From: a virus
IMG/VR virus record: IMGVR_UViG_3300046744_000457
Coordinates: 1-22,530 of that record
Reading direction: 5' to 3' (one strand)
Length of the DNA: 22,530 bases
This document shows, piece by piece, positions 1-20,513 of the stretch. The notes below the pieces were generated by a model, which saw only the letters and a list, made by a program, of their open reading frames with translations, had not been told where the DNA came from and made no database searches. The translations under genes were made by a program, and so were the position numbers. Every line of letters starts with the position of its first letter. Position 1 is the stretch's first letter.

Positions 1-3000
1 ATATACAAATGCAGTTGCTCCACTTAAGTCATTGATACTTCCGTATTTAATAGAACTCATATCTATACCACCTCTGTTTATCTGATAAGAATTTTTTTGT
101 TGTCTTCCAATTTTTCTATCAGACTCTTTAATGTTTGACGGAATTACTCCATTTGCATTTGAAACTAAAGTGCCGGGTACTAAAATATCTACATCACTTT
201 CAATTATTTCTTCTCCCGTAGCAACCTTACCTGAAAGTGTATTCATTAATTCAATTACGTCAGCATCGGATTTTGTAAATTTCACTCCAAAGTTTAAACC
301 TAACTTTTTAGCAATATCTTGAAAAAATTTAATAATTTTATTTTTTTGTGGTTTATTTAACCTAGTATATTCTGAAGCCATTATCCCCATTAATTCTGCC
401 AACCCTTCTTCACTCTGTAAGTCAGGGTCATTGTCATAAGCAGCAACAAACTGGTCAATTCTAATAGCTAATTTATTATTTTTAGGTAACGCTTTTCTAA
501 CCGATTTCATCATAGATTTAGCCATGGCTTCTATTTCAGGTTCAGAAGATAATTTGTTTACAATTACTGCATGAAATACCTCATGTGGAACTGTAGATTC
601 TTTTGCAGTCTCTAAATTTACATGTATTATATTAGCTTTTTGGTCAAAATATCCCTTTCCAGCAGGTGCGTATTTCTCAAACTCTGTTTTAGAGTCATGT
701 AAAATAATTTTTGTATTAGGTAATATGCCTTTAATAGATGTTGCTGCTTTGTTTGCTAAATCCACAGTTATATTAGCTATGTTGCCTCGTGACTCTGGAG
801 CGTTGTCCGTGTTGATTACCAAGTTATCTGATATAACTTCAGTGGTTTTAGGTGCTGTGTCACCAAAAAATATTTTGGTAGCATTAAGTTTTTTTGTTGG
901 AGTTGGTTCAGCAAACACTTCATCTAAAGTTTCTTCAACAACATCCTCGCTGACAGGTTTTTCTTTTAATCTTTCAAGTTGAAAATTTATATCTTCAATT
1001 TCTTTTAAATCATTTTTTTTCAAGTTTTCATCAATTGTACCTGTAGCCTCTTTAATCTTTTGTTTTTTAACTAACAAATTCATTGCCATTAAATATGAAG
1101 TATCATCTAAATTTTCGGGCACAGACTTTGACAATCCTATTGCTAAGTTATAATCTGCTTTAATTTGTTTGGCTTGCTCAGTGGTTATCTCACCTGAATT
1201 TATTTGTGATTTTAATTTATTAGTAAATGCAGTTTCACTTATGTTAGGGTCTTTTTTTATTAGCTGAAAAGCTGCTAATTGTTGTGGTGTTAATTCATTA
1301 AATGATTCATTACTGTAAGCATTAGATATTGCTTTAGGCACTCCTAATATAAAACCTCCAACCGCTTCTTGTGCTCCTGCATATAAAGCATCTAAAAGAA
1401 ACTCAGTTCCTGTATCGGGAGTTTCAAAATAATCTTTTTGTTTTAAATCATTATAAACCATTTTGACTACATCCTCAGTTATCTGTTGTGATAACCCTGT
1501 CTCAAATTCTGTAGCAGCTGCTCCAGTTACAGTTAATGCTGCTTTTACAGCAGGAGAGCTCACCTCTTCTAAAATATATTGCCTTAAAGTAGAAGGAGCT
1601 GCTCCTTTTGGAGTTCTACCTAATGCTTTAGCTAAAACTTTTTGAATTATACCTACGCTTTTTCCTTCAAATATGTTTCTAAAACCAATGTTTTCTAAAG
1701 CTGCAGATGGTATAGCAATAACAGATTTTAAAGTAGCTTTTTCACTTTCTGGTACATCGTCAAACATGGGGTTGTTTGCCATCTCTTCATCTACAAAACT
1801 TGCTGTTAAAGAATATAAATTAGCCAGACGTGTAGGTTGATTTGGAGAAACTAATGCTGGTAAGGATTCTATTAATCCATAAATAGCGCCACCCCAAAAA
1901 CCTTCAGTTTTTGCAGCTTCGTATTGCTCGGACACTGATTTATTTGTCCACTCCTCCAACACATCTTCTCTTATTACATCAGAAATAGGAGCTAACTGTT
2001 TTCTGTTATCATCCCTTATTTTATCATTTATTATTTCAATAGCTGGTATTTTTTCAGTAACTTTTTCAGTCGCAAATGGAGCTGTAACCATACGTTCTTT
2101 ATCAGAATCTTTATTATAAAATTCTTCTATTTGTTCAGTGGATAAACTTTCAACGTTAGATGGAGCGCCATAGCCAAATTCTTTTCCATATTTAATTAAC
2201 TCATCCCTGTAAGCACTTCTCCCCATTTGTAATTCCAAGGGAATAAATTTAGTAGCCGCATCAATACTTAACTGTACGTTTTCCGATGCAATTCTTAAAG
2301 CTCCAGATTTTAACTTTTTTAATCCTAATCCACCTAAAGAGCCCTGCATTTCTTTCATAGCAAAATACTTCCCGGTGGCTTCGTTTAAATCTATTTCTTT
2401 TTGTTTAAATCCTTCTGTAGCATTTTCTAAATTTTCTCTAGCTAGGTTTTGTTGAATTATTCTTTTATTTAAATCTTTAATAAAAACTTGATTATTAGCT
2501 AATTCCTCTTCCGACATTCTTTCTACTTGAGTAATTTCTTTTTCTAATTCGGTAGAGTTTTTAATATATAAATCATAACCGTTTTGTAATTCTTGAGCCT
2601 CATTACTAAAAGCTTCATTGGTTTTTTTAAATTGCTCGTCAGATTCAAATTTTAATTTATTTTGTTTATAGCCAAATTCTTTTTTAATTATGTTTGTTGA
2701 CTCTTTTCTATTGTCTACAATAAATCTTTTAAGGTCTTCTGCTTTTTGTGATTCATCTTGAAATAAACCTATATCAAATTTTTCTGTAACACCATTTCTT
2801 GCTGTTACTTTTATTTTTTGTCCTGTTATATCAGCCTCTTCAAATACAAAGCCTTGGTCACCATATAAATAATTAAGTTGAGGAACAATAAAACTTTCTT
2901 TTTTTTCTAATAACTCAGGGGTTATACCGCTTACACCCCCATTTTTTATTAGTGGGTCTTTATCAACAGCGTTTATGTATTTGTTAATTTTATCAAAAGA

Positions 3001-3291
3001 CTTTGGTGGGGGAATTGTTTCTTCCACTTCTCGTTTTGTCGGCATAAGTTGCTCCGATAAACCATTTTCCAATTTTAAACCCGAATCTTCTGGTTCTGAA
3101 AAGTCTTTTTTTTTTCCAACTAATGACGCAAAGTCTTCAGAAGATTTTGTATAACCGTTAGATTGTGCATGAGAATACATGTCTTTAAAAACATCATCAT
3201 TATTATAAAGAAGATTTGTAAATTCTTCTTCAGATTTTGTATACCCTTTAGACTGAGCAACGCCATATAAATCTTTTAATACTTCTTCCAT
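1..3291 (-). CDS. Large polyvalent internal-virion protein with HExxH metallopeptidase domain (partial, runs off left end)
   Basis: Read from ATG at 3291-3289, the frame is open to base 1, giving about 1097 residues with the C-terminus missing. Residues 5-34 and 35-64 are a tandem repeat (core AQSKGYTKSEEEF / AQSNGYTKSSEDF). Residues ~150-310 are charged, helical and likely coiled-coil. Residues ~480-660 are Ala/Gly-richer helices. Near residues 860-970 sits a zincin-type domain: PHEVFHAV contains HExxH (H903, E904, H907), and about 55 residues later EEGLAEL (961-967) could supply the third, glutamate zinc ligand as in gluzincins. It starts one base after the stop of the 549-residue gene and follows two ejection-protein-like genes, the position held in T7-like phages by gp16, which carries a transglycosylase. 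I infer an injected internal virion protein whose protease acts during head maturation, at the host envelope, or on host proteins. The peptidase motif is firm; the virion role is inferred. Confidence 0.75.
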   Translation of the reverse strand, partial: MEEVLKDLYGVAQSKGYTKSEEEFTNLLYNNDDVFKDMYSHAQSNGYTKSSEDFASLVGKKKDFSEPEDSGLKLENGLSEQLMPTKREVEETIPPPKSFDKINKYINAVDKDPLIKNGGVSGITPELLEKKESFIVPQLNYLYGDQGFVFEEADITGQKIKVTARNGVTEKFDIGLFQDESQKAEDLKRFIVDNRKESTNIIKKEFGYKQNKLKFESDEQFKKTNEAFSNEAQELQNGYDLYIKNSTELEKEITQVERMSEEELANNQVFIKDLNKRIIQQNLARENLENATEGFKQKEIDLNEATGKYFAMKEMQGSLGGLGLKKLKSGALRIASENVQLSIDAATKFIPLELQMGRSAYRDELIKYGKEFGYGAPSNVESLSTEQIEEFYNKDSDKERMVTAPFATEKVTEKIPAIEIINDKIRDDNRKQLAPISDVIREDVLEEWTNKSVSEQYEAAKTEGFWGGAIYGLIESLPALVSPNQPTRLANLYSLTASFVDEEMANNPMFDDVPESEKATLKSVIAIPSAALENIGFRNIFEGKSVGIIQKVLAKALGRTPKGAAPSTLRQYILEEVSSPAVKAALTVTGAAATEFETGLSQQITEDVVKMVYNDLKQKDYFETPDTGTEFLLDALYAGAQEAVGGFILGVPKAISNAYSNESFNELTPQQLAAFQLIKKDPNISETAFTNKLKSQINSGEITTEQAKQIKADYNLAIGLSKSVPENLDDTSYLMAMNLLVKKQKIKEATGTIDENLKKNDLKEIEDINFQLERLKEKPVSEDVVEETLDEVFAEPTPTKKLNATKIFFGDTAPKTTEVISDNLVINTDNAPESRGNIANITVDLANKAATSIKGILPNTKIILHDSKTEFEKYAPAGKGYFDQKANIIHVNLETAKESTVPHEVFHAVIVNKLSSEPEIEAMAKSMMKSVRKALPKNNKLAIRIDQFVAAYDNDPDLQSEEGLAELMGIMASEYTRLNKPQKNKIIKFFQDIAKKLGLNFGVKFTKSDADVIELMNTLSGKVATGEEIIESDVDILVPGTLVSNANGVIPSNIKESDRKIGRQQKNSYQINRGGIDMSSIKYGSINDLSGATAFVY

Positions 3292-5698: not shown

Positions 5699-7471
5699 TT
5701 AAGGATAGCTTTTCATTACTTCCGATTCAACAGCAAAAAGCTCAGTGGAATTAGTGCTTTCATTTATAAGTGTAAATATACAATAATGACCAAGTAAACC
5801 ATGAGATTCTGCAACTGAACTTTTAATATAAAGTATAAACGCATCTTGAGTTGTTATTGTTTTAGCACCAGTAATACTTGTGTCTATTGATATCTGGTTT
5901 ATACCCGCTCGTATATTAATGTTAATATTTGTTATCTTTCCTCCTAAATTAATACTAGTATAGTCTGGTAGGGAAAAATATAAATAATCACCAATACTTA
6001 CAATGTTTCCAATTTCAACAACTGGGTTAGTAGAAAAATTTAAAGTAGTTGTGTTTCCTACAGTTGTATAACTTGTCGACTTTCCTATCCCGTTAGCTGA
6101 CCTCATAGCGTATTGTCCTGGAAGCGCTGGTACTTCTCCGGTTTGTCTTAGAAATGCAAAATAATCACCTTCTTTTTTAATAAACCAAGTGCTGTCAATA
6201 AATCCGTTTTGTTGTATATCAGTTTCTAGATTTGCTTGCCATGCTTCATTTGATTCTAAATTAATAGTTTTAAATATCTTATTCTCAAGTGGGTTTTGAT
6301 TAAACACTGTTGTAATTTGAGAATTATATTGCTCTCCATAAAAATTATTTCTACTTCCATTAGCATTGTGCTGGTATAAATTACCACCATTAAATGTATA
6401 AAAGTATTGATTCATACCAAGCATATAATCAGGTATGTATGAATAAAACGATGGCCACCCTTTTGAAGTTTGACTATATGTTAAAGTATACTCCGTTTCT
6501 ACCGGTGAAGGTATTGGAGGAACAACACTAGTCGGAGTAGGTGCTGTCGGAGTAGGCGTTGGAGTTGGAGTAGCTGTTGGAGTAGCTGTCGGCGCTCCAG
6601 GCGTTGGCGTTGGCGTAGGAACTGGAGTCGCAGTTGGCGTGGGAGTAGGAGATGAACATGCAACATTTTCACTACGTGCTTGTCCATTTTGTACAGTTGG
6701 TATATTACCATCTTTTACACAAACTTCATAGTCTGTGTCAGTGAACAAAGTACCGCTTTGTACTACATTACTACAATCCCTATAAGAATAATTACATGTC
6801 GTGGCACTACTAGGACACACTAAAACCCATTCTGTACATCCTGTTGAAGGAGTAGGTGTTGGAGTAGGAGGACCTGGCGTAGGTGTCGGACCTGGCGTAG
6901 GTGTCGGATTTACTGAACATGCAGCACTAGGCCCTACTGCTGTACCACCATTTACTATTGGAGTGTTTGGAAATAAAACACAAGCGTCTATGTCTCTATC
7001 CGGCTCAATTGTCCCGGTTTGAGTTACTGCGTTACAGTCTATGTATTCATAACTACAACCATAAGCACTTGTACTTGGACATAATAATTCCCACTCATAA
7101 CACTGAACACTTATTGGCGTAGGCGTGGGAGTGGCTGTTGGTGTTACTGTTACTGTTGGTGTCGGTGTTGGTGCTCCAGGCGTTGGCGTTGGCGTAGGAA
7201 CTGGAGTCGCAGTCGGAGTAGGTGTTGGTGTTTGGGTAGGTGCTATAGGAATATCGCCACAATCAGAAGAACAAGGGTCAAATGTTTCAAAGGCTGAACC
7301 AGATAAAGATGTTACAGTAACTACTCCTTCTTCGAGTACACAAGCCTCAACAATACTATCAGGCTGCATGGTATAGTTAATTAGTTGTCCATCACAACAA
7401 TCAATTTCAAACGTACACTCATCTCCTACTGCTCCTATAGGACAAGATAATATATAAATGTTACAAGCCAT
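5699..7471 (-). CDS. Tail fibre-like protein with three Cys modules, Thr-Pro linkers and a C-terminal beta-rich domain, 590 aa
   Basis: Three Cys-containing modules occupy residues 1-75, 122-187 and 212-273. The second and third share the pattern C-x-E-W-x-L, then C-x-Y-x-Y/R-D-C, then a Val-Cys and a final Cys; the first is a divergent version. Thr-Pro linkers separate them at residues 79-120, 189-210 and 275-324. The C-terminal ~265 residues (from about 326, EYTLTYSQTSKGWPSF) look beta-rich, with Gly, Asn, Tyr and aromatic residues. To my memory they resemble a domain found in tail proteins of Bacteroidetes phages. The modules and linkers match those at the end of the 2210-residue tail protein, including a perfect 35-base DNA match. 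A surface-exposed fibre or adhesin that is possibly O-glycosylated on the linkers is the best guess; the modules have no known function that I can name. A TAnnTTTG box precedes the gene. Confidence 0.65.
   Translation of the reverse strand: MACNIYILSCPIGAVGDECTFEIDCCDGQLINYTMQPDSIVEACVLEEGVVTVTSLSGSAFETFDPCSSDCGDIPIAPTQTPTPTPTATPVPTPTPTPGAPTPTPTVTVTPTATPTPTPISVQCYEWELLCPSTSAYGCSYEYIDCNAVTQTGTIEPDRDIDACVLFPNTPIVNGGTAVGPSAACSVNPTPTPGPTPTPGPPTPTPTPSTGCTEWVLVCPSSATTCNYSYRDCSNVVQSGTLFTDTDYEVCVKDGNIPTVQNGQARSENVACSSPTPTPTATPVPTPTPTPGAPTATPTATPTPTPTPTAPTPTSVVPPIPSPVETEYTLTYSQTSKGWPSFYSYIPDYMLGMNQYFYTFNGGNLYQHNANGSRNNFYGEQYNSQITTVFNQNPLENKIFKTINLESNEAWQANLETDIQQNGFIDSTWFIKKEGDYFAFLRQTGEVPALPGQYAMRSANGIGKSTSYTTVGNTTTLNFSTNPVVEIGNIVSIGDYLYFSLPDYTSINLGGKITNININIRAGINQISIDTSITGAKTITTQDAFILYIKSSVAESHGLLGHYCIFTLINESTNSTELFAVESEVMKSYP
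6500..6649 (-). repeat. Thr-Pro-rich linker tract, third in the 590-aa protein
   Basis: About 50 codons of Thr-Pro with a few Ala, Val and Gly link Cys module 3 to the C-terminal domain. The coding strand is a degenerate ACNCCN hexamer repeat. It contains one copy (6594-6634) of a 41-base sequence repeated exactly at 7173-7213. Confidence 0.85.
6594..6634 (-). repeat. 41-base direct repeat, copy A
   Basis: Identical in all 41 bases to 7173-7213 and in the same orientation; it encodes the linker piece [13 protein letters not shown]. Perfect identity despite free synonymous choice in ACN/CCN codons argues for recent duplication or gene conversion. Confidence 0.85.
6842..6907 (-). repeat. Thr-Pro/Gly-Pro linker tract, second in the 590-aa protein
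   Basis: Twenty-two codons between Cys modules 2 and 3, with the subrepeat PTPGPTPTPGPP encoded by near-identical DNA units. Confidence 0.8.
7112..7237 (-). repeat. Thr-Pro-rich linker tract, first in the 590-aa protein
   Basis: Forty-two codons between Cys modules 1 and 2. The tract holds the 41-base unit shared with 6594-6634 and the 35-base unit (7194-7228) shared perfectly with 13690-13724 in the giant tail gene. Confidence 0.85.
7173..7213 (-). repeat. 41-base direct repeat, copy B
   Basis: Second copy of the repeat at 6594-6634. Its 5' half on the coding strand continues into the 35-base unit shared with the giant tail gene. Confidence 0.85.
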
Positions 7472-7487
7472 CCGCTAAATATTGTTA

Positions 7488-7495
7488 CAAATTTA
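7488..7495 (-). promoter_or_regulatory. Bacteroidetes-type -7 promoter box TAAATTTG
   Basis: The minus strand reads TTCGTAAATTTG in the 59-base gap after the GT32 gene, 16 bases before the ATG at 7471. It matches TAnnTTTG and shares the TTCGTAA lead-in with the box at 20912-20919. No clear -33 element is visible. Confidence 0.5.
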
Positions 7496-7530
7496 CGAAT
7501 TTAAATGCAATGTCTTTTATATTGTTTTTT

Positions 7531-9828
7531 TCAATTAAAACAATTTAATATTTTTGATTTAGGAAATTTCCAAATCCAGTTTTGGAAATCTTCTAATCCT
7601 CCAGATAGAGTTACTGTGTCTCCTGTATCTAGCATAGTCATAACAAAAAATAGTCCATAACCTATGTGTTTGTTTATAAAAGGAACAGAAGAAATTTTTA
7701 TAAAGTTAAAGTTACTGTCAAGCATTACTAACCAATGATTATACTTTCTTTCGTTATATATTTTTGTATGTATCGAATATATCAACTTATCTTCTATAAT
7801 TATAGGAGAGGTTGAACCACCGGTTGTAACTTTAGAGAAATACATTTCATCTCTTGGAATGTTGTGTTTGTTGTCTGTATCTTCTTTATGATAAATTTTA
7901 AAGTATAATGTATCCCAATCCTCACATTTGTATATCTGCAAGGTGGGTGTTGTTGAATAAATAAAATAAAGCTCATCATCCTTTTCAAAAAATAACCAAT
8001 TCTTTTCAAAGTAAACCTCTGGTCCAACCCCAAATTTCATCTTGTTATATTCGTCTATAACAACATCTCCTAAAAAAGTATATTGATAATCTAAAATAGC
8101 CATTTTTGTATTAAACTCGCCATCTATATACGCGGCACAAAAGTAATCTTTACCTTTGTATGAAAAATGTCTAAAGTCTTCAAACTTTGCTTTTTTACTG
8201 TATCCTGCTATAGGTAGAATTTTTGAGTTGATAACGTCAAAATCTTTATTAAACAAATACTCTGTTAAACTTCTACAATCACCAATCTCTTTCATAAACA
8301 AAGTCCTTTCTGTATTCTCATCATATCTTGATACACCTTTATATTCATCTCCATAAGGAAAAATTGTAAGGTTGTGTGTGACAGAGGGTCTTGTTAACGT
8401 ATCTAACTTTTTTATGTCTTTGTTTTCTGCTGTTCTCCAAGTGCCCTCAAACATGTGGGTTATATAAATATCATCTCTTGTTACTTCAAAAGGTTTTGAT
8501 GTTTTAAAAGCATTACTATGTATTTGGTTAGAGCCAAAGCGATTTATTGATAGACATACTGATTTATCTTTAGATACATCTTTTGTATAGTCTTGTTTTG
8601 TTCCAAAATAATCTATAACGTGTTTTGTAATTCTACCAGGCCCTGTGTTAACTATAGCACCTCTATCAACTGGGTTGTTCATTATATCTTGTATAACCTG
8701 TAACATAAGAGGATGATGTTTTTTAGAAGCTATTGCCCAGTTACATACGGAAAGAATTTTGTTATCTATTACATAGCCTATACCAAAAAAATTATCTTTA
8801 AAAAAACCTTCTTTAACAACGTTACCTTCTAAACCAAAAATTATATCTTGATAAGTTATCCAATCGTCCAAAGGTTGGTTACAAAAAGTATCTGTATCTA
8901 CATAAACTCCTCCGTTTTCATAAAGATAACAGTACCTAAAAAAATCACTTATCTCTCCTTTACATGAAAGTGTACGGTAAAATTCATCATATGGTGTATT
9001 TTGAAACCATTTCTCCTTTTGTGTTTCATCAAAAAATAAAAATTCATAATCAGGGTTATGTTTTTTAAAACTATCAATCATGTAGTCATTAACACCAAAC
9101 AAATCTAATGCTGTATAGATTATTGTTCTGGGTATCTCTCTAAATATTCTGTGTTTCTCAACGTTATCCCAAAAGTAAGAAGGTAAATTATCTTGTTGCT
9201 TTGTAGGGTATTCACATTTTATGTAATTTTTTTTATTAAAAACTATATGACCATTCTGATGTTGAACAACTAACATATTACTTGTTTTATCTAAACCTAA
9301 CTTAAAATCTTGTTCTGTATCCCTTCCAAGATATTGATTTATAGCTTTACCAAACATAGCAGGGCCTGTGTAATCAAGATAAAACCTTTCCTCTTTACTT
9401 TCAACGTTAGATATAATTTTCTGTATTGCAATTTTAAGAGCAGGATGTCTTGGTGTTGTAGCTATAAAACCATTCCATAACCATTTTTTAGCCATAGGGT
9501 CATCTCTACAAACTATAAGGTTAACGTTTTGATTTAATAGTCCCCCCAGGTCTTCTAATAGTACTGTGTCAATATCTGAATAAACTCCTCCATGAATATA
9601 CAAAGCACACAATCTAAATAAATCAGCTTTGAATGCACCAGGAACAAGGTCTATAAATGCGTTTACTTCTTTATGTGTAAAGTGTTGTTTAATAAATTCA
9701 AGACACTGTTTATCATCGTAAAAATTATAGGTAAAATCTTTTACAACCCATGTTTGCTGAGCTTGTTTCATACCCTCAGGTAATTCAGCTGTTTTAAATG
9801 TTTGAAATATTTTTTTTGGTATTAACAT
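7531..9828 (-). CDS. Dual GT32-type glycosyltransferase with predicted C-terminal beta-propeller, 765 aa
   Basis: Two DXD glycosyltransferase domains of the GT32 (sugar-binding region containing DXD motif) type are visible. The first spans residues ~1-220 (IPKKIFQTF; KADLFRLCALYIHGGVYSDIDT with DXD at D85/D87). The second spans ~230-475 (IPRTIIYT; SDFFRYCYLYENGGVYVDTDT with DXD at D311/D313). Both carry the preceding helix and the GGVY motif, so both are probably active. Residues ~485-765 are rich in repeated Trp/Phe/Tyr strands (for example NWLFFEKDDELYFIYST) that look like a five-bladed propeller of the GH130/GH43 kind; this part is a weaker call. The enzyme would act in the host cytoplasm with nucleotide-sugar donors, adding two sugars of a glycan. 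Its ATG overlaps the FkbM gene's stop by seven bases, so the two are translationally coupled. Confidence 0.8.
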   Translation of the reverse strand: MLIPKKIFQTFKTAELPEGMKQAQQTWVVKDFTYNFYDDKQCLEFIKQHFTHKEVNAFIDLVPGAFKADLFRLCALYIHGGVYSDIDTVLLEDLGGLLNQNVNLIVCRDDPMAKKWLWNGFIATTPRHPALKIAIQKIISNVESKEERFYLDYTGPAMFGKAINQYLGRDTEQDFKLGLDKTSNMLVVQHQNGHIVFNKKNYIKCEYPTKQQDNLPSYFWDNVEKHRIFREIPRTIIYTALDLFGVNDYMIDSFKKHNPDYEFLFFDETQKEKWFQNTPYDEFYRTLSCKGEISDFFRYCYLYENGGVYVDTDTFCNQPLDDWITYQDIIFGLEGNVVKEGFFKDNFFGIGYVIDNKILSVCNWAIASKKHHPLMLQVIQDIMNNPVDRGAIVNTGPGRITKHVIDYFGTKQDYTKDVSKDKSVCLSINRFGSNQIHSNAFKTSKPFEVTRDDIYITHMFEGTWRTAENKDIKKLDTLTRPSVTHNLTIFPYGDEYKGVSRYDENTERTLFMKEIGDCRSLTEYLFNKDFDVINSKILPIAGYSKKAKFEDFRHFSYKGKDYFCAAYIDGEFNTKMAILDYQYTFLGDVVIDEYNKMKFGVGPEVYFEKNWLFFEKDDELYFIYSTTPTLQIYKCEDWDTLYFKIYHKEDTDNKHNIPRDEMYFSKVTTGGSTSPIIIEDKLIYSIHTKIYNERKYNHWLVMLDSNFNFIKISSVPFINKHIGYGLFFVMTMLDTGDTVTLSGGLEDFQNWIWKFPKSKILNCFN

Positions 9829-10508
9829 TTTAATAAATAATCACTATGACTAATTTGTTCAATTGAATAACCTAATTCAATAAAATCTTTATATAAGGTT
9901 TTGGTGTGTTCTAAATTAGCATTTCCGCTATGGTCAGCCCAACATTCTAAAACAATTATTGGTTTATATTTTTTTATTGTATTTAATGCTCCTTCTAATG
10001 CTAAGGGTTCATACCCCTCTATATCTAATTTTATAAAATCTAATTTATTTAATTTTAAATTATCAATTGTAATACATTCAGTTTCTTTATTTGTAGATGT
10101 AGGCATTATGTTTCCCATTGGGTTATTATCTAAACCACTTCCTCCTGGGTTGTTAGAAGTAATCCAATTAAATTTTATTTTATTATTGTTATTTGATAAT
10201 GCTTTATTAAATGTTTTTACATTATTACATTTATTTTCTTTTAAGTTTTTACTTAATAATTCAAATGATGTATCTAAAGGTTCAAAACAATAAAGTTGTT
10301 TACATAATTTTGATAATTTAACACTATGTAAACCGATGTGACATCCTCCTTCAATTACAACCGAATTTTTATTTACATATTTCTCAAATATTTTATGTAA
10401 AAACTCTTCGTATATTTTATTTTTTTTTACAATATTACAAATAAGACAATCATCATATAAATGAAAGTTACAAGATTTATTATTATGATAATTTTCTAAT
10501 TCAAACAT
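9822..10508 (-). CDS. FkbM-family SAM-dependent methyltransferase, 228 aa
   Basis: This is a compact Rossmann-fold methyltransferase. Motif I is VVIEGGCHIGLHSVKLSK (residues ~50-67), the acidic end of strand 2 is CFEPLDTSFELL (74-85), and the family signature is DFIKLDIEGYEPLALEGA (157-174), followed by PIIVLECW. The NPGGSGL loop (120-126) is also typical. FkbM enzymes mostly O-methylate sugar hydroxyls of glycans or natural products. The usual family core is ~150-160 residues and is complete here. The start codon overlaps the GT60 gene's stop by one base (TAATG) and the gene overlaps the GT32 gene by seven bases, so the three form one translational unit. A role in methyl-capping the glycan made by the neighbours is inferred. 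Its composition is especially Asn/Lys-rich and AT-rich compared with the flanking transferases. Confidence 0.85.
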   Translation of the reverse strand: MFELENYHNNKSCNFHLYDDCLICNIVKKNKIYEEFLHKIFEKYVNKNSVVIEGGCHIGLHSVKLSKLCKQLYCFEPLDTSFELLSKNLKENKCNNVKTFNKALSNNNNKIKFNWITSNNPGGSGLDNNPMGNIMPTSTNKETECITIDNLKLNKLDFIKLDIEGYEPLALEGALNTIKKYKPIIVLECWADHSGNANLEHTKTLYKDFIELGYSIEQISHSDYLLKC

Positions 10509-11734
10509 TAAATAGGTATGACTAATCGTTCAGCCCACCCTTTAGATGCTGAATGTGCCCATACAATTATATTAGTTGGTTTTTTAGTATTTGATTCTAC
10601 CGGTATATTAAAATTATCTTTATTTTTTATTAATTGATTTAAATGAGTTATATCTTTTCTATATAATTCTTTTTTCTTTTCATCTTCAAATATTATAGCA
10701 CAAAATGTATAATCATTATATTGAAATTGATTTCCATGTAAATTTAATATATGAGAGAACTTAGGATGATACAATTCATCTTTTTTACCTAATGTTGGTA
10801 TTTGATTATTTAAACATGATTGTCTAATAGCTCTATCACTGAATCTAATTCCACTATATTCTTCGTAATCCTGTAAAGTTCTTTCTTTACCAAGACCATA
10901 AACACCAAAATGTTTCTCATTACAAGGAGTACAAACTTCACCATCTACTCCTAATAGCTGTCTTACCCTACTATGTGTATGTGTGTTTTTTTCTACCCAA
11001 GTTGAATCGTCGTCCCAATGTTTTGTTCTACCTGTTCTTGTGTATTCGTGATAAGCAATTATTTCATTTGGATGAAATAAATCATAGCCATGAGTAAAAG
11101 ACCTAACAGCAAGAGTTATTTCCTCACCGTGAAAATAAAAAGAAGGGTCATGCTGAACCTCTTCTACGTGTTTACCTGTTGTAAAAGCAAAATGTGCTGA
11201 ATAAAATCTTGCCGGTAAAGGTTTGCTTGTATCTTCAATTGTATAAGGAAGGAAAAACACTACACCTTCAGGCGTAAATCTATCAAATTTCATTCCCCAA
11301 ACTTCAGCGTTATCTTTAATGTTAAAATTATTTGGGTCGTATGCTGTTGCGTAAGTAGTAAGCAATGGCTTTTTATGCCCTGCTTCTTGTAGATTCTCAT
11401 ACATTTTAATCAACTTGACATCCCAATGTTTTACAAATCTGTGATGACTATCAAGTTGTAATGTATATTTTTCATTATTATATTCTTGCTGTATTAAATT
11501 ACGTGCCCAACAAGCACCGTTTGTTTCAGTATAAGGTATATCTAATATTTTTACCTTTTTGTCTTTTTTATATTTACCTAAATCATCCCACTTATCTTCT
11601 GTTGAATGTTGCCAGGCAATACATACCATTATATTATTAGGGAATTTTGCGTTGTCAAATAATGAATCTAATGTAGGTACTAATTCTGGGTCACGGTACG
11701 CTGCAATTTGGATGAATATACTGTTTTTGGACAT
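10508..11734 (-). CDS. GT60-type polypeptide GlcNAc-transferase homologue, 408 aa
   Basis: I place the start at the ATG at 11734 (MSKNSIFIQIAAYRDPEL); the frame is open from a TTG two codons earlier. Landmarks match the GlcNAc-transferase family PF11397/GT60: IFIQIAAYRDPELVPTLDSL at the N-terminus, GACWAR (~73-78), YTLQLDSHHRF with the metal/donor-binding DSHH (95-98), and FHGEEITLAVRSFTHGYDLF (~210-230) followed by a conserved His. Characterised GT60 enzymes transfer alpha-GlcNAc to Thr of mucins in Trypanosoma cruzi, or to hydroxyproline of Skp1 in Dictyostelium. Residues beyond ~300 form an extension I do not recognise. The gene lies between two Thr-Pro-rich virion proteins, making their linkers the obvious acceptor candidates. 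Substrate and donor are inference; family membership is strong from the motifs. It is coupled to the FkbM gene by a one-base overlap. Confidence 0.82.
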   Translation of the reverse strand: MSKNSIFIQIAAYRDPELVPTLDSLFDNAKFPNNIMVCIAWQHSTEDKWDDLGKYKKDKKVKILDIPYTETNGACWARNLIQQEYNNEKYTLQLDSHHRFVKHWDVKLIKMYENLQEAGHKKPLLTTYATAYDPNNFNIKDNAEVWGMKFDRFTPEGVVFFLPYTIEDTSKPLPARFYSAHFAFTTGKHVEEVQHDPSFYFHGEEITLAVRSFTHGYDLFHPNEIIAYHEYTRTGRTKHWDDDSTWVEKNTHTHSRVRQLLGVDGEVCTPCNEKHFGVYGLGKERTLQDYEEYSGIRFSDRAIRQSCLNNQIPTLGKKDELYHPKFSHILNLHGNQFQYNDYTFCAIIFEDEKKKELYRKDITHLNQLIKNKDNFNIPVESNTKKPTNIIVWAHSASKGWAERLVIPI

Positions 11735-11799
11735 AGGCAATCTATTAGATTAAATTAAATTTAATTAAATTTATTAATTATAAACGAATTAAAAAAATA
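11735..11799 (-). other. AT-only leader with palindromes before the glycan-enzyme cassette
   Basis: This 65-base gap is almost purely A/T and contains the 14-base palindrome AATTAAATTTAATT. It has no TAnnTTTG box and no G/C-rich terminator stem. It may act only as an unstructured, A/T-rich translation leader for the GT60 gene; a similar A/T-rich leader precedes the gene at 21720. Confidence 0.4.
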
Positions 11800-12234
11800 T
11801 TAAAGGCTGTATAGGGTTTTTAGTTTTTGTATTTTTTGTAAAACCCAATCTTTTTTAATGTCATTGTATATTTTTTCAAGGTGATTTATAGAGGCTTGAG
11901 GTGTAACTATTTTTAAGCCTTGAATAATTGTGTATTCAGTTGTATTGTTGCTAACAAAAACATCTAAATATTTTCTTTTTTTTCTTTCACCACACATTAC
12001 TACAAATTGATTTATAATATTTTTACCCCACACATGTCCTCCATTAATTTCAAGTGGTTTACCTAATTTAGAAATTAAATCTACCGATTCTGGAGTAATA
12101 GATACATCAACCCAGTTTTTATCATAATGCAAATTATAACCATTATAAAACTTAGACCACCCGCCTAAAATAATTACATTTCCACTGAGGTGATTGTTTA
12201 CTTCTTTAATAAAATTTTGCATTTCTAAGGACAT
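11800..12234 (-). CDS. Small protein with possible nucleotidyltransferase fold, 144 aa
   Basis: The visible pattern is [15 protein letters not shown] (residues ~20-34), then WVDVSIT (~41-47), and later KYLDVFVS (~88-95). This resembles minimal nucleotidyltransferase-fold proteins (GG-x-S, hDh, third acidic strand), but the first acidic motif is D-x-S rather than D-x-D, so catalysis is doubtful. I give the ATG at 12234. Alternatives are a TTG at 12243 and an ATG at 12222, the latter only two bases past the stop of the giant tail gene. It lies between that gene and the glycosyltransferases, so it might belong to sugar activation or to the tail module. I cannot decide which. Confidence 0.55.
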
Positions 12235-15200
12235 GATGGACAAGATGTTGGTCCTGCTGTTTTTACACCATTGAAAAATTCATAATAAGTAGAACCATCC
12301 TCTGACACGAAGATTGTACCTCTATCAAGCTCTGTACAACCTAAACCTGAATACAGTCTGGTTGCTGAAGCTACACTGTTAGCGTTAAAGTATTTAATAC
12401 CGCTGCTGTCTGGAGGCACACAACAACCATTATAAAGGCCTGTGGAGAAACCTACTTCAATTGCAATACAAGCTCCAGGCGTTGGCGTAGGTGTAGGGCT
12501 AGGTGTTGGACTCGGAGTCGGAGTCGGTGTCGGGCCATCAGGCGTCGGACTCGGAGTTGGAGTCGGACTCGGAGTTGGAGTCGGACTCGGAGTCGGACTC
12601 GGAGTTGGAGTCGGACTCGGAGTCGGAGTATTTGTAGGCAATACAGGTGGAGTTGACGTTGGTGTAGGTGGTGGAGTAGTACATGAATTACAATCTGTAT
12701 ATTCCGCATTTGCAAGCGTACCTAACGTTCCGGTAGGGTCAACAATTTCATAACAATTTCCATCAGGCATTAATAATACAGTATAAGTTGGGAATGTGTT
12801 TGCAAGTGCTCTACCCACAGTATAATTATTAAACCCACCATCACATCTTGTTATTGTATAGTTATCATAAGATATACCTGGTGTTGGAGTTGGTGTTGGC
12901 GTTCCAGGAGTTGGTGTTGGTGCTCCAGGAGTAGGGCTCGGTGTCGGTGTTGGTGTTGGTGTAACACAAGGTCCTACAAGCGTAACAGTACCACCACCAC
13001 TTGTTACAGTAGGCACCCCTAATGCACATACTGATGCTGAATCACCAGCATCTACACTTTCTGTTTGTGATGCACCACTACAATCAGTATAACTAAAGTT
13101 ACCAACTAAACCTGACGCTGCTTCTAAATCCCATTCATTACAACCTCCAGGCGTCGGGGTTGGTGTTGGAGTTGGCGTTGGAGTTGGAGTAGGGTTAGTA
13201 GCTATACAAGTATCACAATCTGGGTAAACATTAGTATAGTCATTAGCGTTTACAGTTGAACTAGTTTCATCTATCTCGTAACATCTATCGTCAGCCATTA
13301 ATACTATATCACCCGGAGCATCTCCACTAGCATCTGCTACTCTAACATTGATATAAGTTGCACTACCTTGTCCTGGACAAATTGTAACAGTGTAATAATT
13401 ATATCCAAACGTAGGAGTCGGAGTAGGGGTTGGCGTCGGGGTTGGGCTAACCGGAGTAACTGTCGGAGTTGGAGTAACAGTTGGACTACAACTTACTCCA
13501 GTGTTATTTGGCGTAGGACCGTTTACTATAGGTGTTGTTCCGTTTAATACACATACCTCAATATCAAAATCCCCTGGCATTATTCCTGTCTGTGTATTGC
13601 CATTACAATCAACATACGAGTAAGAACATCCACTACTTCCACTTTGACAGGTTAGTTCCCACACGCTACAAGAAGGAGTAGGTGTAGGTGTAGGAACTGG
13701 AGTCGCAGTCGGAGTAGGTGTTGGGGTTGGCGTTGGGGTTGGCGTTGCCGTAGGACAAGGTCCATTTAAAGTAACAGTCCCGTTACCACTTGTTACAGTA
13801 GGAACACCTACAGCACAAACTGGTATTGAATCACCATCTGGTACTGTTTCTGTTTGTGGATTACTAGAGCAATCAGTATAACCAAAAGTACCACCACCAG
13901 TGCCACCTACTAACTCCCATTCGTTACAACCACCTGGTGTAGGTGTTGGAGTAGGTGTTGGTGTGAGCGTTGGTGTTGGATTAGATGTTAAACAAGCAGT
14001 ACAATCTACATAAACATTTATATAGTCGTTAGTATTTGCTGGTGCTGCATCTTCTGTTATCTCATAACATCTACCATCGTTCATTTCTACTATATCTCCT
14101 GATGTTACACCACTTGCAAATGATGCTCTAACACTACTATATAATGTTCCTCCTCCTCCAGAACAAGGAGTAATAATAAAGTAATTATAAGGCACTGGTG
14201 TTGGTGTCGGTGTTAAAGTCGGAGTCGGCGTAGGCGTCTGAGTCGGAGTCGGCGTTGGGCCAGTGGAAGTTGGTGTAGGCGTCGGGGTTGGTGTTGGTGA
14301 TGCTGTAGACCTATAATCCCACACTAAATATAAAATACTTCCGCTTGCTGGCATAGTGAAATCTACCGAATAAATTGTTGGAGCGCCAACTGTAGATATT
14401 GGTGTTGCATCAATTGCTAAAGAGAGTAAACTTGTTATGTCTGTTACATTATTTTGATAAAAAGTGTTTGTTCTTAAATATTTTAATCTATCTGTTGAAG
14501 GGTTAAATACAAAATCATCAAAATTAATTTTGTTTGAAGATACAGTTACAGTAGACCCGTCAGTTGGAAAAACTCCACTTCCCTGTGGTCCAGAAAATAA
14601 CTGGTATTGTGATATAGCAAAGGAAGAAGATGTGCTTGTAAATTCTACTAAATTAGATTCTATAGGTGAAACAGTCACACCGTCAGTCCAACCAAATTCG
14701 TTATGTATGAATTGTCCAGCTTCAAGTGGGTCAGTAACACAAATGTTATATATATTTAATGCGCCTGCTTCTGGACAACTTACATTTATTTGAATAGTAT
14801 CGTTTTGGTCTGAATCTGAGCTAACCACTATTGTAACCTCTTCTACGCTTGGAACATTTTTATCAAGTGTAAAACTACCTGAAGTAGTAACAGAACCTGA
14901 TGTATATGTTACGCCTTTATAAATAGCTTTTATTGTATACCCAATTTGAGATTGAGACCCCTCTGTAATTAGTTGGTTTCCAGATTCATCTGTCATCAAT
15001 ACGCTAGTTTCGCTTTCAATATCTTGCTCTCCTTCTTGTGGGATTACATAACTTACTGTTACAGTTCCTGTTTGCTCAGTAACATCCACACAATAAACAA
15101 AGTCCTGATTAGCTATTATTGTTATATCTTTAGTAACACCACACGCTAAACAAACTGGTATTTCAGGTTTTAATATTGTATTTGAAGTTAATACATACTC

Positions 15201-18200
15201 GTCCATGTAAGGGTCGTAACCTCCTAATTTTTGTGTAGTAAATGCAGAAGTAAATAAATCCCTAAACCAGCTTCTCATCCCGGTTTCAGATATAACTATA
15301 AGTCTTTCGTCTGAAGCTGAACCACCCATCAATTGAAGTACAGCACCTCTTTTAACATCAGTAAAATATTTGTTTTCACCCCAAGCCACAAAACTTTCTG
15401 GGTTATTGCTTATACCATAGTTCTCTATACGTGCTATTTGATTTCCTAAAATTTCTGGGACTGAAGCTACTAAACCTCCTCCAGTTGAGTCAGATATAAT
15501 ATTTTTAGATGCTAATACGTATGATATTTTATCCTCTTGTAAAACTAAGATATCAGTTCTTCTTGCATATAATATTTCAACATCTCCATAACTTTCTTCA
15601 AGTGGTTTAAAATTGGCTAAACCTAAATTAAATTCATTTAATTTATTAACATTAGTTTCATCATTATATACACCACTATAAGTTAAATCAGCAAACCTAA
15701 GAGCTTCTTTATATTCTACGTTAGAAGTTGTAAATACTCTATTACCTAAATTAAAAGATTTACCATTTAAAGCATCTCTTATTTTGTAACTTTCTACACC
15801 ATTTCCAAACGCAAAACAATTAAAAAATTTAGTATTAACTACACCAGCAACACCTGTAGATATATCTTGATTAGTTATGTTACCGCTATGATTACCGTTT
15901 GAATCAATAGAATATGATTCATCGTTTTCATACCACACATCAGGTAATGCTTCTGTTGGTTCTGTTTCAAATACAACGACTGAATCTCTTCTAAACACAG
16001 TAAAAGTAATTTCAACACGAGACCTATATCTACTTCCTGTACTAGCACCTGGACAAGCTTCAGTACCGCTTACAAGTAAAGAATAAGTATTGTTAGTATT
16101 ATTTTCATAAAACCTATAATAGTTATTAAGTAGTAAATCACTTTCCGTCGATGGGCTGTTAAATTCCCCCCCAAATATAGTGTACATTGTTGAATTACCT
16201 AAATTATTTCCTGCGTATCCATTTGTTTCTGGAGTACCTGTAGGTGAACCAGGAACTAAACCTGAAATAACAACGTTTCCTACCGGGTCATCAGGGTTTC
16301 CACTATAAGTAGTAGCATTATTTTCTATCACATATGTTGCATTACTATCAATAAACCATTGATACATATCTGTGTAAGTATCTTGCGCAATAAATTGTTC
16401 TTCTATTACACTTTCTCTTTCTTCACATGGCCCACCCCCACCTGGTCTTCTTTGTTTTATTTTCATTACTATTCTACTTCCGCTAGGCACATTATAATTG
16501 GTGCTTGTACCTCCATCTGTAGTGTAAAAAGGATTTGCTGCAACTGGATTTTCATTAGGATTATCTGCTTTTTGCTGAAAAGTTCCTAAAGAAATTATAT
16601 CACTAGCACTTTCCTCAGTAGAAAAATCTTGAGAATTCATTTTCATATATGTCCCTCCTGGAACAGGATTCCCACTAGCAGGAGTAATAAAGTCCGCAAC
16701 TTGTGTTTGTTTTTCTAAAACAGTTGCAAATACACAAGATTCAACCGGACCGTTTGCATCTCTTTTTACTATTAATCTATCGCCTTCTTCAACTTTAGCA
16801 ATATTATCTCCTTCTAATAATAAAAACGTATTATTGGAATTTGGGTCATTAATGAATATGCTTGAATATATGGTCTCATAAGTAGTTCTATCAGGTTTTA
16901 ACACAAACTTATATCTGGTCGCCCAAGCAGGAGCTCTTTGGGTAGTTGGTATTGTTGCAATAATTTGATTTAAAGTTTGTGAGTTTCTGCAGGGAATATT
17001 TACAGTATTATTATTACTAACTAAAGCTGTCGAAGCCCTGTTAAATTCATCCATGTATACTATACCTAATTCATAACCTCTATTACTATGTAAACTTTGT
17101 AAATCTGCAGTAGCTTGTAATGTAGCGGTAATAGATGTAAAGGTATTGTATGATACAATTAAATTACTTGTTCCTGGTGATGTTTGAATATATTGAGCTA
17201 CAGGAAAAAATAGTTGTATTTCAGTTCCATTTAAAATTGAATTAATTGGTTCACCTTTATTAGTGGATGGAGGAACTGAGCTTGTGCTTGACGTTAACCC
17301 TGTTTGATTTAAAGAGTAACTAACTCCCCCACCTGATAAAGTTGGTGATAAAGAAAAATTAAACGCATCTGTTAACGTTGCACCTAAACCATTTTGAGCA
17401 TCTTCTACAGTCTGAATAGCAGAACTTATTAAACCTAGTTTAGATTGAAAATCTGAGCTATTATATAGAGCTGAAACTGTAGTATAGTTATCAACTAAAA
17501 CATATTGAAAATTAATCAGGGTTTCTCCTTGCAGTTGAGTTGGAGTATCTGTCCCATTATTGTAAGATAAATGTTGATAGGTAAAAGAAAGATTTAAACT
17601 TGCTCCTTGAATTAATTTACTTTCATATCCACCTAAATCAAAAGTAAACCCAGCCGTATTTATGTTTTGATTATTACCAAAAGCTGTATAATTGAATGTC
17701 AATAAATTAGAAGAATTTAAATCTACTCCACTAGCATCTTCAGTGTCTAAAGCAACAGTGTATTGTAAATTTAGTGGTTGATTATTTATGTCAATTAAAT
17801 TATATCCTTCTGTGTAATTACCATAAATCAATCTATTACCCATTAAAGTTTGAGCTTTCGCTAATCTAGGTACATTGTCATATAATCTTAATATTTCTGT
17901 TTCTGGTAATAAAGTGAAAATTTTACTATTAGTGAAAACATAAGTTGCATTAGTGTTATGTGGCCCTAATGATGATTTTTTTATTTTTTCAATAATTTTT
18001 ATTGTAGGGTCGTTAGCCTCTTTAAACAATAAATCTATACCAACTACTAATGAACTTCCCGTATTATATGTAATTTGTACTGCATTTTTGGAATTAACCA
18101 TTCCCTCGTTTAAAAAACTATTTGGAGAAAATTCAAAAAAACTTGGTTGAAAAGCTGGTTCACTAAACTGTGAAACAGCTGAATATTCGCCATTTGAATA

Positions 18201-18857
18201 TTTATATCTGTAAGCAAAACAAATAAAATTATCTTCTAAAAAAGAATCTTGTAAAGTAGTGCTTAATAAATTTAATGTTGGTGCAGCCAGAGGCGGTTTT
18301 TTAATCACTAAAATTTCTTCATCACTAAATTGGTCTACATTATTAAAAGGAACAGAGTAATTAAAATCTATATTTATAACTCTTGGAGCATTTAAATTGT
18401 CTGTAAAAAAAATTAAATTATCTATTTTACTTACAGAGGTTATAAGAAAATTTGAGTTAAAATTTAAAGTAGTTTTTGTATTATCACCAGAATTAATACT
18501 TACGACGTGATAAATAAGAGAGCCTGTTATAACATTATAAGAAACAATTAAATCTAATTTACCAGTAGCTCCTACAGTAAATGCTGGGTCATGAACAAAC
18601 CAATATATAGTTTCATTTGCACCATCTTCAAAAACACCAATACATCTAGCAGAGCTGCTTAATGCAGTACCGTCTATATATTGTAATGATGTAACCTGGA
18701 CGTTACCCTTAGCATTTTCAACAGCCCCTATTTCTGATTCTTCAGTAGAACCAAGCCTAACATTCAAAGCATCTATATACTCTCCGTTTGGTATAAGCCT
18801 TTCATCAAGGCTTTTGTTCATACGCCCAGCTACAAAATTTCTTTGAATGTTTGCCAT
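12225..18857 (-). CDS. Giant tail stabilisation/muzzle-type protein with C-terminal Cys modules on Thr-Pro linkers, 2210 aa
   Basis: The N-terminal part ([20 protein letters not shown]..., continuing to about MDEYVLTSN near residue 1220) looks like the P22 gp10-type tail stabilisation protein of crAss-like and related Bacteroidetes phages, much enlarged. Residues ~1230-1515 look like Ig-like beta domains. From 1520 onward, Cys modules alternate with Thr-Pro linkers. Type 1 (Y-x-x-x-x-C ... R/N-CYEI ... Y-x-D-C-x-x-C) is at ~1557-1626, 1819-1888 and 1997-2057. Type 2 (C-x-x-W-x-L ... Y-x-D-C ... V/A-C-A/V) is at ~1644-1701, 1730-1790 and 1906-1965. A unique eight-Cys terminal module is at 2130-2210. 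The stop of the preceding 306-residue gene is one base before this ATG, so the genes are coupled. I infer a distal tail protein whose C-terminal arm projects as a mucin-like, possibly glycosylated stalk with adhesive knobs. The N-terminal assignment rests on remembered homology. Confidence 0.72.
12471..12680 (-). repeat. Thr/Ser-Pro linker tract before the terminal Cys module
   Basis: The longest linker, 70 codons of Thr-Pro and Ser-Pro. Inside, an 18-base unit (one strand GGACTCGGAGTTGGAGTC) repeats at 12547, 12565 and 12595, with a 12-base variant at 12583, showing recent tandem expansion of an SPTPTP block. Confidence 0.88.
12876..12962 (-). repeat. Thr-Pro/Gly linker tract
   Basis: Twenty-nine codons between the third type 2 module and the third type 1 module, with PGAP and PGTP interruptions that also occur in the 590-residue protein. 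Confidence 0.8.
13143..13193 (-). repeat. Thr-Pro linker tract
   Basis: Seventeen codons, almost pure Thr-Pro ending in Gly-Gly, between the second type 1 module and a type 2 module. It repeats the module order seen around 13929-13979. Confidence 0.8.
13410..13487 (-). repeat. Thr-Pro/Val linker tract
   Basis: Twenty-six codons of Thr-Pro with TVTP interruptions between a type 2 and a type 1 module. Confidence 0.8.
13671..13754 (-). repeat. Thr-Pro linker tract sharing DNA with the 590-aa gene
   Basis: Twenty-eight codons between two type 2 modules. Bases 13690-13724 are identical to 7194-7228 in the second Thr-Pro gene, 6.5 kb away in the same orientation. Confidence 0.85.
13929..13979 (-). 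repeat. Thr-Pro linker tract
   Basis: Seventeen codons of Thr-Pro ending in Gly-Gly between the first type 1 module and the first type 2 module. Confidence 0.8.
14190..14300 (-). repeat. First Thr-Pro linker tract of the giant tail protein
   Basis: Thirty-seven codons of Thr-Pro with Ser, Gln and Gly interruptions mark the boundary between the conserved tail body and the Cys-module arm. Confidence 0.82.
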
Positions 18858-18858
18858 T

Positions 18859-19779
18859 TTATTTTATCCACTTATCTTCACCTCTAAGATTCATAAGCAA
18901 TCTACTTGGGTGAATGTTACTTAATCTGATTTTAGCATTTCTTAATAAAGCTTGTTTGTTTTTTCTTGCTCTATTAATAATATACTCTTGCACTCCAAAT
19001 TTACTATTTAATATAGCATATTGTATATAAGCATAAATATAATCTTCAAATAATTTATTTACACTTATTTGTGAGTCATCGCCATTTTCCATTCCATCAG
19101 ATATGTATTGTAACACACATTGTCTATTAGCCATAGTTGAATCAAAATTAATAACACCAGCTTTTTTATCAATAGTAAAAGTAGGATTAATGTTGGCTGT
19201 TTCTGTGTTTAAACCATATCTAGCTCCGATACGAGAATTGTATATGTCGCCATCACAATCAATACAGTTACCGTTCTCATCAGTTTCATTATTTTGATTT
19301 AAATAAATACTATTTAAAGACCCATCTTTTCTGGAAGTATCTAAATTTGACTCTATAGTTGATACATTATTATTTCCATCATATCCAAACACTGCAGTAG
19401 AGTTTTGAAGGTATTGAATGGAAGATTGTACTTGAATATTTTCAGTTAATTCTCTTAAGGTATTACCCTCAAACAAATAAAGCTTTACCCAGTTTACATA
19501 ATCAGACGGTAAAACAAAACGCAAATCATCATATACTGTCAACTCTAATGCTTTTATTTCTTTAAAAGCATCGTAGTTTAATTCCTGAATTGCTCTCTTT
19601 GCGTGAAATAATATCTTATATCTATTTTCATTATTGACTAACGAATGATTTCCATTATACATTAATTCAAAATTAGTCATTATGTTATCTAAGCTTACAT
19701 ATTGATAAGAACCCCAATTACTATCTGTGGGTGCAACCCCATCATTAGTATAATATTTTCGCTGATTTATATATGCCAT
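18859..19779 (-). CDS. Putative tail tubular/adaptor protein, P22 gp4-like, 306 aa
   Basis: The protein has no signal peptide. Its N-terminal half contains [20 protein letters not shown] and a helical [19 protein letters not shown] segment followed by beta strands ([17 protein letters not shown]). The C-terminus is helical and basic ([20 protein letters not shown]), as expected for a ring protein packing against portal or DNA. I recognise this as the tail tubular (P22 gp4-like) type found just before the stabilisation protein in crAss-like phages, from memory only. A short acidic loop [10 protein letters not shown] near residues 168-177 carries two Cys and could bind a metal. It starts two bases after the upstream stop and ends one base before the giant tail gene, so all three are probably made together. 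Confidence 0.65.
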
Positions 19780-19781
19780 AA

Positions 19782-20513
19782 TTATGTATTAGTTTGATTT
19801 TGCTGTTGCTCTTCTATTTGTCCAAACTGAAATACATCAGCTTCTCTTATTGATATACCTGCATATTGTAATATTCTTGCTACTAAATTATTAGAGTCAT
19901 CTATTGGTAATTCAAAATCTTGGTAATCACTTTGCGTTTGGTCAAACAAAGGTTCACCATTATATAAAGTAACATAAGTCCATTTTGGGTCTAATGGATA
20001 TCGAACGTAAGTTGCTTGTATATCTAAAGCTCCACTGAATGTGGTAGGAAAAATAGTTATAGAATCTCCCTTTTGAGTATAAGCTGGGTATTGAGATGAG
20101 GGAGCGGTTAAAAGAGATTTGTTTAACAGGTCTATTTTATTAATACTAACTTTTTCTGCTTGACCCTTTAAAACACCTCCCACGTAACACAGAACTTTAT
20201 TTAATAAATAATAATCATCACCCGTAGTTGTTTGACTAGGAAGATAATATATGTTATTAGAGTTTTGTACTAAAGTTTTTGTAACAGAAAAAGTATCAAT
20301 CACCTCTTCATAACCAAGTTTTATATCAGCATATCCCGTTCCCGAAACCCTTGCATTTTCCTCGTTTATTTGCTGATTATAATTTATAAAATATTCGTCA
20401 AACAAATCTAATTGTGCTTGTTTAGCAAACAAATTAAAATCGCTAGGAGATATATATCCGTAGTTATTTTTGTTGATAATAGCAAGCACAGTATTTCTTA
20501 CAGAATTTATCAT
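19782..20513 (-). CDS. Putative head-tail connector/tail adaptor protein, 243 aa
   Basis: It begins MINSVRNTVLAIINKNNYGY, a helical start followed by SPSDFNLFAKQAQLDLFDEY. A beta-rich middle carries YYLLNKVLCYVGG and ITIFPTTFSG ... ATYVRYPLDPKW, typical of ring-forming adaptor proteins in podoviral tails. The C-terminus is Gln-rich (EEQQQNQTNT). It is the first gene after the second terminator and has a TATCTTTG box 15 bases upstream, so it probably heads the tail operon. The role is inferred from position, length and the fold impression; no enzymatic motif is seen. Confidence 0.6.
   Translation of the reverse strand: MINSVRNTVLAIINKNNYGYISPSDFNLFAKQAQLDLFDEYFINYNQQINEENARVSGTGYADIKLGYEEVIDTFSVTKTLVQNSNNIYYLPSQTTTGDDYYLLNKVLCYVGGVLKGQAEKVSINKIDLLNKSLLTAPSSQYPAYTQKGDSITIFPTTFSGALDIQATYVRYPLDPKWTYVTLYNGEPLFDQTQSDYQDFELPIDDSNNLVARILQYAGISIREADVFQFGQIEEQQQNQTNT

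Follow-up and report, generated by a model that had tools for sequence, protein, structure and literature searches.

The DNA considered here, referred to below as the window, is the entire IMG/VR virus record IMGVR_UViG_3300046744_000457 (22,530 bases), the main genes of which all lie on the minus strand. Related phages come from Bacteroidota hosts (Cellulophaga, Flavobacterium and Maribacter), and matches to PHROG and Pfam profiles group it with the crAss-like podoviruses. The window contains a cassette of genes for a GT60 glycosyltransferase, an FkbM-family methyltransferase and a GT32 protein, flanked on either side by a gene for a protein with long Thr-Pro (TP) tracts (Table 1). By sequence, the TP proteins correspond to the two parts of a single crAss-like tail muzzle, and we consider it probable that the cassette in this break is a virion-protein O-glycosylation set acting on the flanking tracts.

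The relationship between the TP proteins is seen in Flavobacterium phage elemoC, where a single muzzle-like virion protein of 1493 amino acids covers both of them. Residues 1–1238 of this protein align with residues 1–1223 of the 2210-residue protein of the window, and residues 1262–1493 align with residues 330–590 of the 590-residue protein. Both features used to define Crassvirales muzzles were found, namely the PF25729 domain and an alignment collinear with a muzzle made in one piece. Like the muzzle gp44 of phi crAss001 (PMC10172136), that of the window has a C-terminal PF25729 domain and a muzzle-like order beside tail ring-type genes; unlike gp44, it is divided between two genes, each extended by TP-rich sequence, that enclose an enzyme cassette. 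Arrays of TP tracts and Cys-containing modules flank the break on both sides and the enzymes lie within it. In Cellulophaga phage phi19:3, the two muzzle parts are neighbouring genes without enzymes between them.

The seven TP tracts of the 2210-residue protein comprise 237 residues (90 Thr, 99 Pro), and the three of the 590-residue protein comprise 126 (44 Thr, 48 Pro). The density of Thr-Pro or Ser-Pro pairs peaks at 15 and 9 per 30 residues, respectively, while every other gene of the window stays at or below 3, which bears out the claim of an earlier note on this DNA that only two genes carry long Thr-Pro linkers. Of 119 viral stretches taken at random (1.05 Mb), only 4 contained a tract of this density. 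The modules between the tracts contain 3–6 Cys each, and related modules with partial similarity are common to both proteins. Since the tracts use every synonymous Thr codon (ACA 29, ACC 6, ACG 17 and ACT 38 in the large protein), we can exclude a DNA microsatellite as their sole origin; some short repeats of 6 to 21 bases are present, and the mixture of codons argues for selection on the protein and not on a bare DNA repeat.

The enzyme genes overlap by 1 base (GT60 and FkbM) and by 7 bases (FkbM and GT32). The earlier note, made from the letters alone, had read them as overlapping genes, and all of its features are found on the minus strand at the positions given. Its statement that they lie exactly between the TP genes is slightly inaccurate, as a further gene, for a 147-residue protein, lies there too. 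The GT60 protein contains a full-length PF11397 domain (255.9 bits versus a curated cut-off of 21) and a DSHHR motif, starting at D97, that is invariant among nine phage homologues, an observation that speaks to conservation only. A sequence search of the PDB with the GT60 profile found no relative. Known GT60 enzymes act on polypeptides: Gnt1 transfers N-acetylglucosamine (GlcNAc) to hydroxyproline (Hyp) of Skp1, following prolyl hydroxylation, and a Trypanosoma cruzi enzyme belongs to the same family (PMC6939170). The FkbM gene directly follows GT60 also in an unrelated phage (L009) and is missing from four close relatives with the same cassette (L003–L006), so that the methyl cap suggested by the earlier note would be accessory at best.

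The GT32 protein has the two GT32 domains that the earlier note had recognized, as PF04488 stretches that are both above cut-off and each contain a DXD motif (GGVYSDIDT and GGVYVDTDT). This part matches fungal Och1, an alpha-1,6-mannosyltransferase, with E = 1e-19. The C-terminal third, which the note had missed, is all-beta in an AlphaFold model (mean predicted local distance difference test score, pLDDT, 77), and among its Foldseek hits, mannoside phosphorylases of the GH130 type and a mannoside synthase rank highest (E about 1e-11, namely 1.8e-11; TM-score by target about 0.6). Judged by this model, the protein carries a GH130-like beta-propeller as its third domain. The residues E550-D551-x-R553 of the propeller are invariant and are not placed on an active site. 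How many sugars are added, up to two more according to the note, does not follow from the presence of two GT32 domains.

Table 1. Features of the window (positions in bases) and types of cassette found at the same site in relatives
Feature	Position	Strand	Basis
Three TP tracts and two Cys modules, residues 75–323 of the 590-residue protein	6503..7249	-	
Muzzle by alignment, C-terminal half, 590 residues, N-terminal TP/Cys modules	5699..7471	-	PF25729 crAss_MUZ_C, E = 1.2e-19
Predicted GH130-like beta-propeller domain, residues about 481–756 of the GT32 protein	7561..8388	-	Model and Foldseek
GT32-GT32-propeller protein, 765 residues	7531..9828	-	Two PF04488 matches
FkbM-family methyltransferase, accessory	9822..10508	-	PF05050, E = 3.8e-13; TIGR01444, E = 6e-25
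GT60 (PF11397), resembles polypeptide glycosyltransferases and probably adds the first sugar	10508..11740	-	E = 1e-75
147-residue protein, no family over cut-off	11800..12243	-	
Seven TP tracts alternating with six Cys-containing modules of about 60–70 residues, residues 1517–2127 of the 2210-residue protein	12477..14309	-	
Muzzle by alignment, N-terminal half, 2210 residues, C-terminal TP/Cys-module extension	12225..18857	-	phrog_14478 virion structural protein, E = 6e-215
Virion structural proteins	18859-20513	-	PHROG/Pfam matches
Virion structural (capsid-type) protein, end only	21784-22530	-	PHROG/Pfam matches
Cassette type: GT60 and GT32-propeller, FkbM present or not	Between muzzle halves		
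Cassette type: P4H and HPAT-like gene	Between muzzle halves		
Cassette type: P4H and small GT32	Between muzzle halves		
Cassette type: P4H, O-fucosyltransferase-like gene and carbamoyltransferase	Between muzzle halves		
Cassette type: P4H, short GT60-like genes and epimerase or radical-SAM genes	Between muzzle halves		
P4H, prolyl-4-hydroxylase; HPAT-like, Hyp-arabinosyltransferase-like.

Tracts and enzymes occur together throughout the crAss-like relatives. Among 84 distinct loci, collected by muzzle genes with more added by GT60 and by oxygenase, 51 have both tract and enzyme, 3 an enzyme only, none a tract only and 30 neither; the corresponding numbers for loci collected by muzzle genes alone are 25, 2, 0 and 31. 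The Fisher p values for this co-occurrence (1e-19 and 2e-14) are raw values from which relatedness was not removed, and they overstate the evidence because the traits change only one to three times on the muzzle tree. In phages without tracts, the interval separating the muzzle halves contains only one or two small genes (mostly one, about 160–550 residues) and none of these enzymes.

The kind of cassette at this site varies (Table 1). In relatives of the window it can include a 2-oxoglutarate (2OG)-Fe(II) oxygenase, the N-terminal half of which matches solved prolyl-4-hydroxylases in the PDB with E about 1e-33; the residues H92, D94, H161 and K171 of this domain (HxD...H...K) are invariant. 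The assignment of the HPAT-like genes to PF23452 is weak and holds for part of the family, with one member over the cut-off at E = 1e-6 and 5 of 11 members at E < 0.01 (best 4e-8). A phage from the window's own clade, L303, encodes ring-type proteins 95% identical, a MUZ_C domain 80% identical and a 147-residue-type protein 73% identical to those of the window, and has P4H and HPAT-like genes where the window has GT60, FkbM and GT32. The gene for the 147-residue protein accompanies GT60 as well as P4H cassettes in relatives (25 loci), although these cassettes are themselves unrelated. On the muzzle tree the kind of cassette switches five times (three coarse types), more often than the presence of tract or enzyme. 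By these comparisons of sequence and gene order, cassettes at the muzzle break are exchangeable and are replaced in place.

Two further features of these cassettes were observed. The oxygenase at L105:4870-6180 and its relatives are tandem proteins: the N-terminal P4H-like domain is followed by another half that has a conserved H-x-D/E...H...R pattern of its own and may be a second oxygenase. In some cassettes (L153:7161-8069 and L065:10077-10979), a radical-SAM/SPASM protein is encoded with P4H on one side and a short GT60-like gene on the other.

The composition of the tracts follows the cassette. In Pro-dense tracts, the median Thr fraction is 0.29 for phages with GT60 only and 0.16 for those with P4H only (Mann-Whitney p = 4e-7, without correction for kinship); the fraction is 0.30 in the window and 0.17 in L303. 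Phages with P4H, O-fucosyltransferase-like and carbamoyltransferase genes have AP/VP/IP tracts with 7–11% Thr. This is as expected if GT60 acts on Thr, and if hydroxyproline is what receives the sugar in phages with P4H.

The association extends beyond crAss-like phages. We assembled 69 GT60 loci without muzzle genes, which form 34 clusters at 75% identity, and found a TP tract within 10 kb of GT60 in 31 of the loci and 13 of the clusters, compared with 4 of 119 random viral stretches. In stretches trimmed to the same length, the count is 17 of 69 loci. The reverse search, starting from 119 stretches with TP tracts, recovered GT60 eight times and P4H five times, with one or the other in 11 of 119 (p = 0.0008), and neither in 119 control stretches; these controls rule out chance as the source of the pairing. 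In the isolates XacN1 and RAS14, a giant TP-tract protein is encoded about 9 kb from GT60, and in XacN1 its gene comes after a baseplate wedge gene. The gene following GT60 in other phages is often a sugar enzyme or transferase (GT32, HtrL/YibB, GT25, carbamoyltransferase, FkbM or GT34). The isolates Erwinia phage Y3 and Salmonella phage Sen-NF, which carry distant P4H-like oxygenases, encode no Pro-rich protein within 10 kb of them.

Cyanophage S-SCSM1 provides a single anecdote without a base rate. It encodes 24 2OG-Fe(II) oxygenases, a protein O-fucosyltransferase and carbamoyltransferases, together with two proteins annotated as virion components, gp19 (L658:23462-31273) and the central spike gp217 (L661:6259-9018), that have long PR/SP/TP proline tracts. 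The authors of its description took these enzymes for host metabolism and cell-wall genes, and state that the viral functions of 2OG-Fe(II) oxygenases had not been specifically investigated (PMC9602691).

GT60 loci in cellular genomes, with a TP tract nearby in 17 of 80, were not used, since they came without a bacterial control and included at least two apparent misbinned phage contigs. In this context we observed GT60 genes 93–95% identical to that of the window beside TP proteins on two contigs, L575 (NHBP01000112.1, binned as Planctomycetaceae) and L576 (NYWC01000088.1, binned as Gammaproteobacteria), both of which look like misbinned phage.

These data suggest the following model. In the cytoplasm, ahead of virion assembly, GT60 would place a first sugar on Thr in the TP tracts that each muzzle half carries beside the break. 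Judged by family, this sugar is probably GlcNAc, with UDP-GlcNAc as donor. The GT32-GT32-propeller enzyme would then lengthen the glycan and, in some strains, FkbM would methylate it, so that the tail tip may bear a stiff, sugar-coated Thr-Pro stalk set with Cys-containing modules. Stiffening of the stalk, protection against proteases or by mimicry of a receptor, and evasion are candidate benefits of such a coat, among them the protease resistance and host evasion put forward by the earlier note. Relatives may treat the same kind of tract by prolyl hydroxylation followed by glycosylation of Hyp; since the cassette of the window lacks P4H, its acceptor is more likely Thr. As in mucin-type O-glycosylation in the wide sense, a Thr/Ser/Pro-rich region that could serve as acceptor is found in a protein of the same genome. 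The central proposal of the earlier note, glycosylation of Thr in the TP linkers by the cassette, is well supported by comparison, through the co-occurrence, the in-place swaps, the tract composition and the GT60 genes near TP proteins in unrelated phages.

Several observations weigh against this model. No glycan has been seen directly. The AlphaFold model of GT60 is too poor for comparison with a GT-A-type fold (pLDDT 52.5). On the muzzle tree the tract switches state just three times and the enzyme once, which leaves few independent events, and the two or three phylogenetically independent pairs among crAss-like phages have no statistical power. Three crAss-like lineages (L129, L162 and L239) have GT60 with almost no TP tract. 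In the other phages, the outcome that the earlier note had named as refuting, GT60 without association with TP-rich proteins, is seen only in part, in that GT60 is associated with such proteins without being restricted to phages that have them: 38 of the 69 GT60 loci lack a tract within 10 kb, and of the TP-negative records searched whole, only 4 of 37 have one elsewhere. The excess over random stretches becomes modest when lengths are matched and each GT60 cluster is represented once (5/34 versus 4/119, p = 0.026). The many GT60 phages without a tract imply that GT60 must also have other substrates or acceptor sequences. Finally, because tracts were detected by Pro density, the constancy of Pro among them is partly a matter of construction.

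The absence of TP tracts near GT60 in some phages would fit an alternative in which the enzymes alter the host surface (lipopolysaccharide or capsule), perhaps as a barrier to superinfection, and are neighbours of the tail genes only as members of a late operon, with the TP tracts as ordinary flexible linkers. The GT32 and FkbM families do also work on surface polysaccharides, and the sugar genes of S-SCSM1 were interpreted as cell-wall modification (PMC9602691). We nevertheless regard this explanation as unlikely, since the cassette occupies the gap in a single split structural gene, since the swapped-in cassettes include P4H and Hyp-arabinosyltransferase-like enzymes that by family act on polypeptides, since tract composition tracks the cassette, and since tracts lack enzymes in 0 of 84 crAss-like loci. 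Slightly less probable again is that virion proteins are glycosylated chiefly elsewhere, for example on the Cys-rich modules or on another virion protein, the tracts being mere spacers. L129 and L162, which retain GT60 and Cys-containing structural proteins with nearly no TP tract, could be read in this way, as could the capsid and tail-tube C-terminal glycans of mycobacteriophages (as cited in PMC12619734 and PMC12363180), but the Thr content of the tracts varies by cassette type and TP tracts recur close to GT60 in unrelated phages. A single origin of tracts and enzymes in one clade, followed by co-inheritance without functional link, would accord with the few state changes on the muzzle tree and is very improbable, given that tracts persist while the enzyme set turns over and that the reverse search and the unrelated phages show the association independently.

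Glycosylation of the muzzle tracts by the cassette would have parallels in several known systems. Phage self-glycosylation of virions is already known from the mycobacteriophages Che8, Corndog and Myrna, where it was reportedly described by Freeman et al. 2023. These phages encode glycosyltransferases for their own virion proteins, with glycans found at the C-termini of capsid and tail-tube subunits (as cited in PMC12619734 and PMC12363180); here, in contrast, GT60 and GT32 genes (or P4H with HPAT-like and other genes) lie inside a split muzzle gene, and Pro-rich tracts would be the acceptors. In the Skp1 system of Dictyostelium and Toxoplasma (PhyA and Gnt1; PMC6939170), GT60 is the first transferase, and some relatives of the locus similarly pair P4H with short GT60-like genes; the target in the Skp1 system is one Pro of a cytoplasmic eukaryotic protein, and the cassette of the window has no P4H. 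The pairing of P4H-like with HPAT-like genes beside Pro-rich proteins in other relatives resembles plant extensin glycosylation by P4H and Hyp arabinosyltransferases, but in a phage, with a split muzzle as the presumed target and with HPAT matches that are weak and found for only some of the family members. The T. cruzi UDP-GlcNAc:polypeptide alpha-GlcNAc transferase, which adds alpha-GlcNAc to mucin Thr, is of the same GT60 family; unlike the phage protein, it acts in the eukaryotic secretory pathway. In the open-access literature we found no described phage Hyp/HPAT or mucin-like system, and no phage system with swappable Thr- or Hyp-type cassettes aimed at a Pro-rich tail stalk.

Apart from the muzzle locus, the window encodes an open-ended protein of at least 1097 residues (positions 1-3291, minus strand) with an HExxH motif (VPHEVFHAVI), possibly a zinc-metalloprotease domain in a large, perhaps virion-packaged protein.

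If the proposed reading of the cassette is true, phages make plant- and protist-like glycoproteins within bacteria and exchange glycan chemistry at a fixed site of the tail tip, where host contact is likely. It would also make testable the role of phage GT60, O-fucosyltransferase, carbamoyltransferase and 2OG-Fe(II) oxygenase genes, and the published virion proteome of S-SCSM1 may already contain the answer as unassigned spectra. In our judgment the balance is even as to whether crAss-like and other phages share an interchangeable module that makes eukaryote-style Thr-O- or hydroxyproline-O-glycoproteins on Pro-rich tail stalks, with acceptor and enzymes co-evolving. On that view, prolyl hydroxylation of virion proteins would be the function of many 2OG-Fe(II) oxygenases that are so far unexplained in marine phages.

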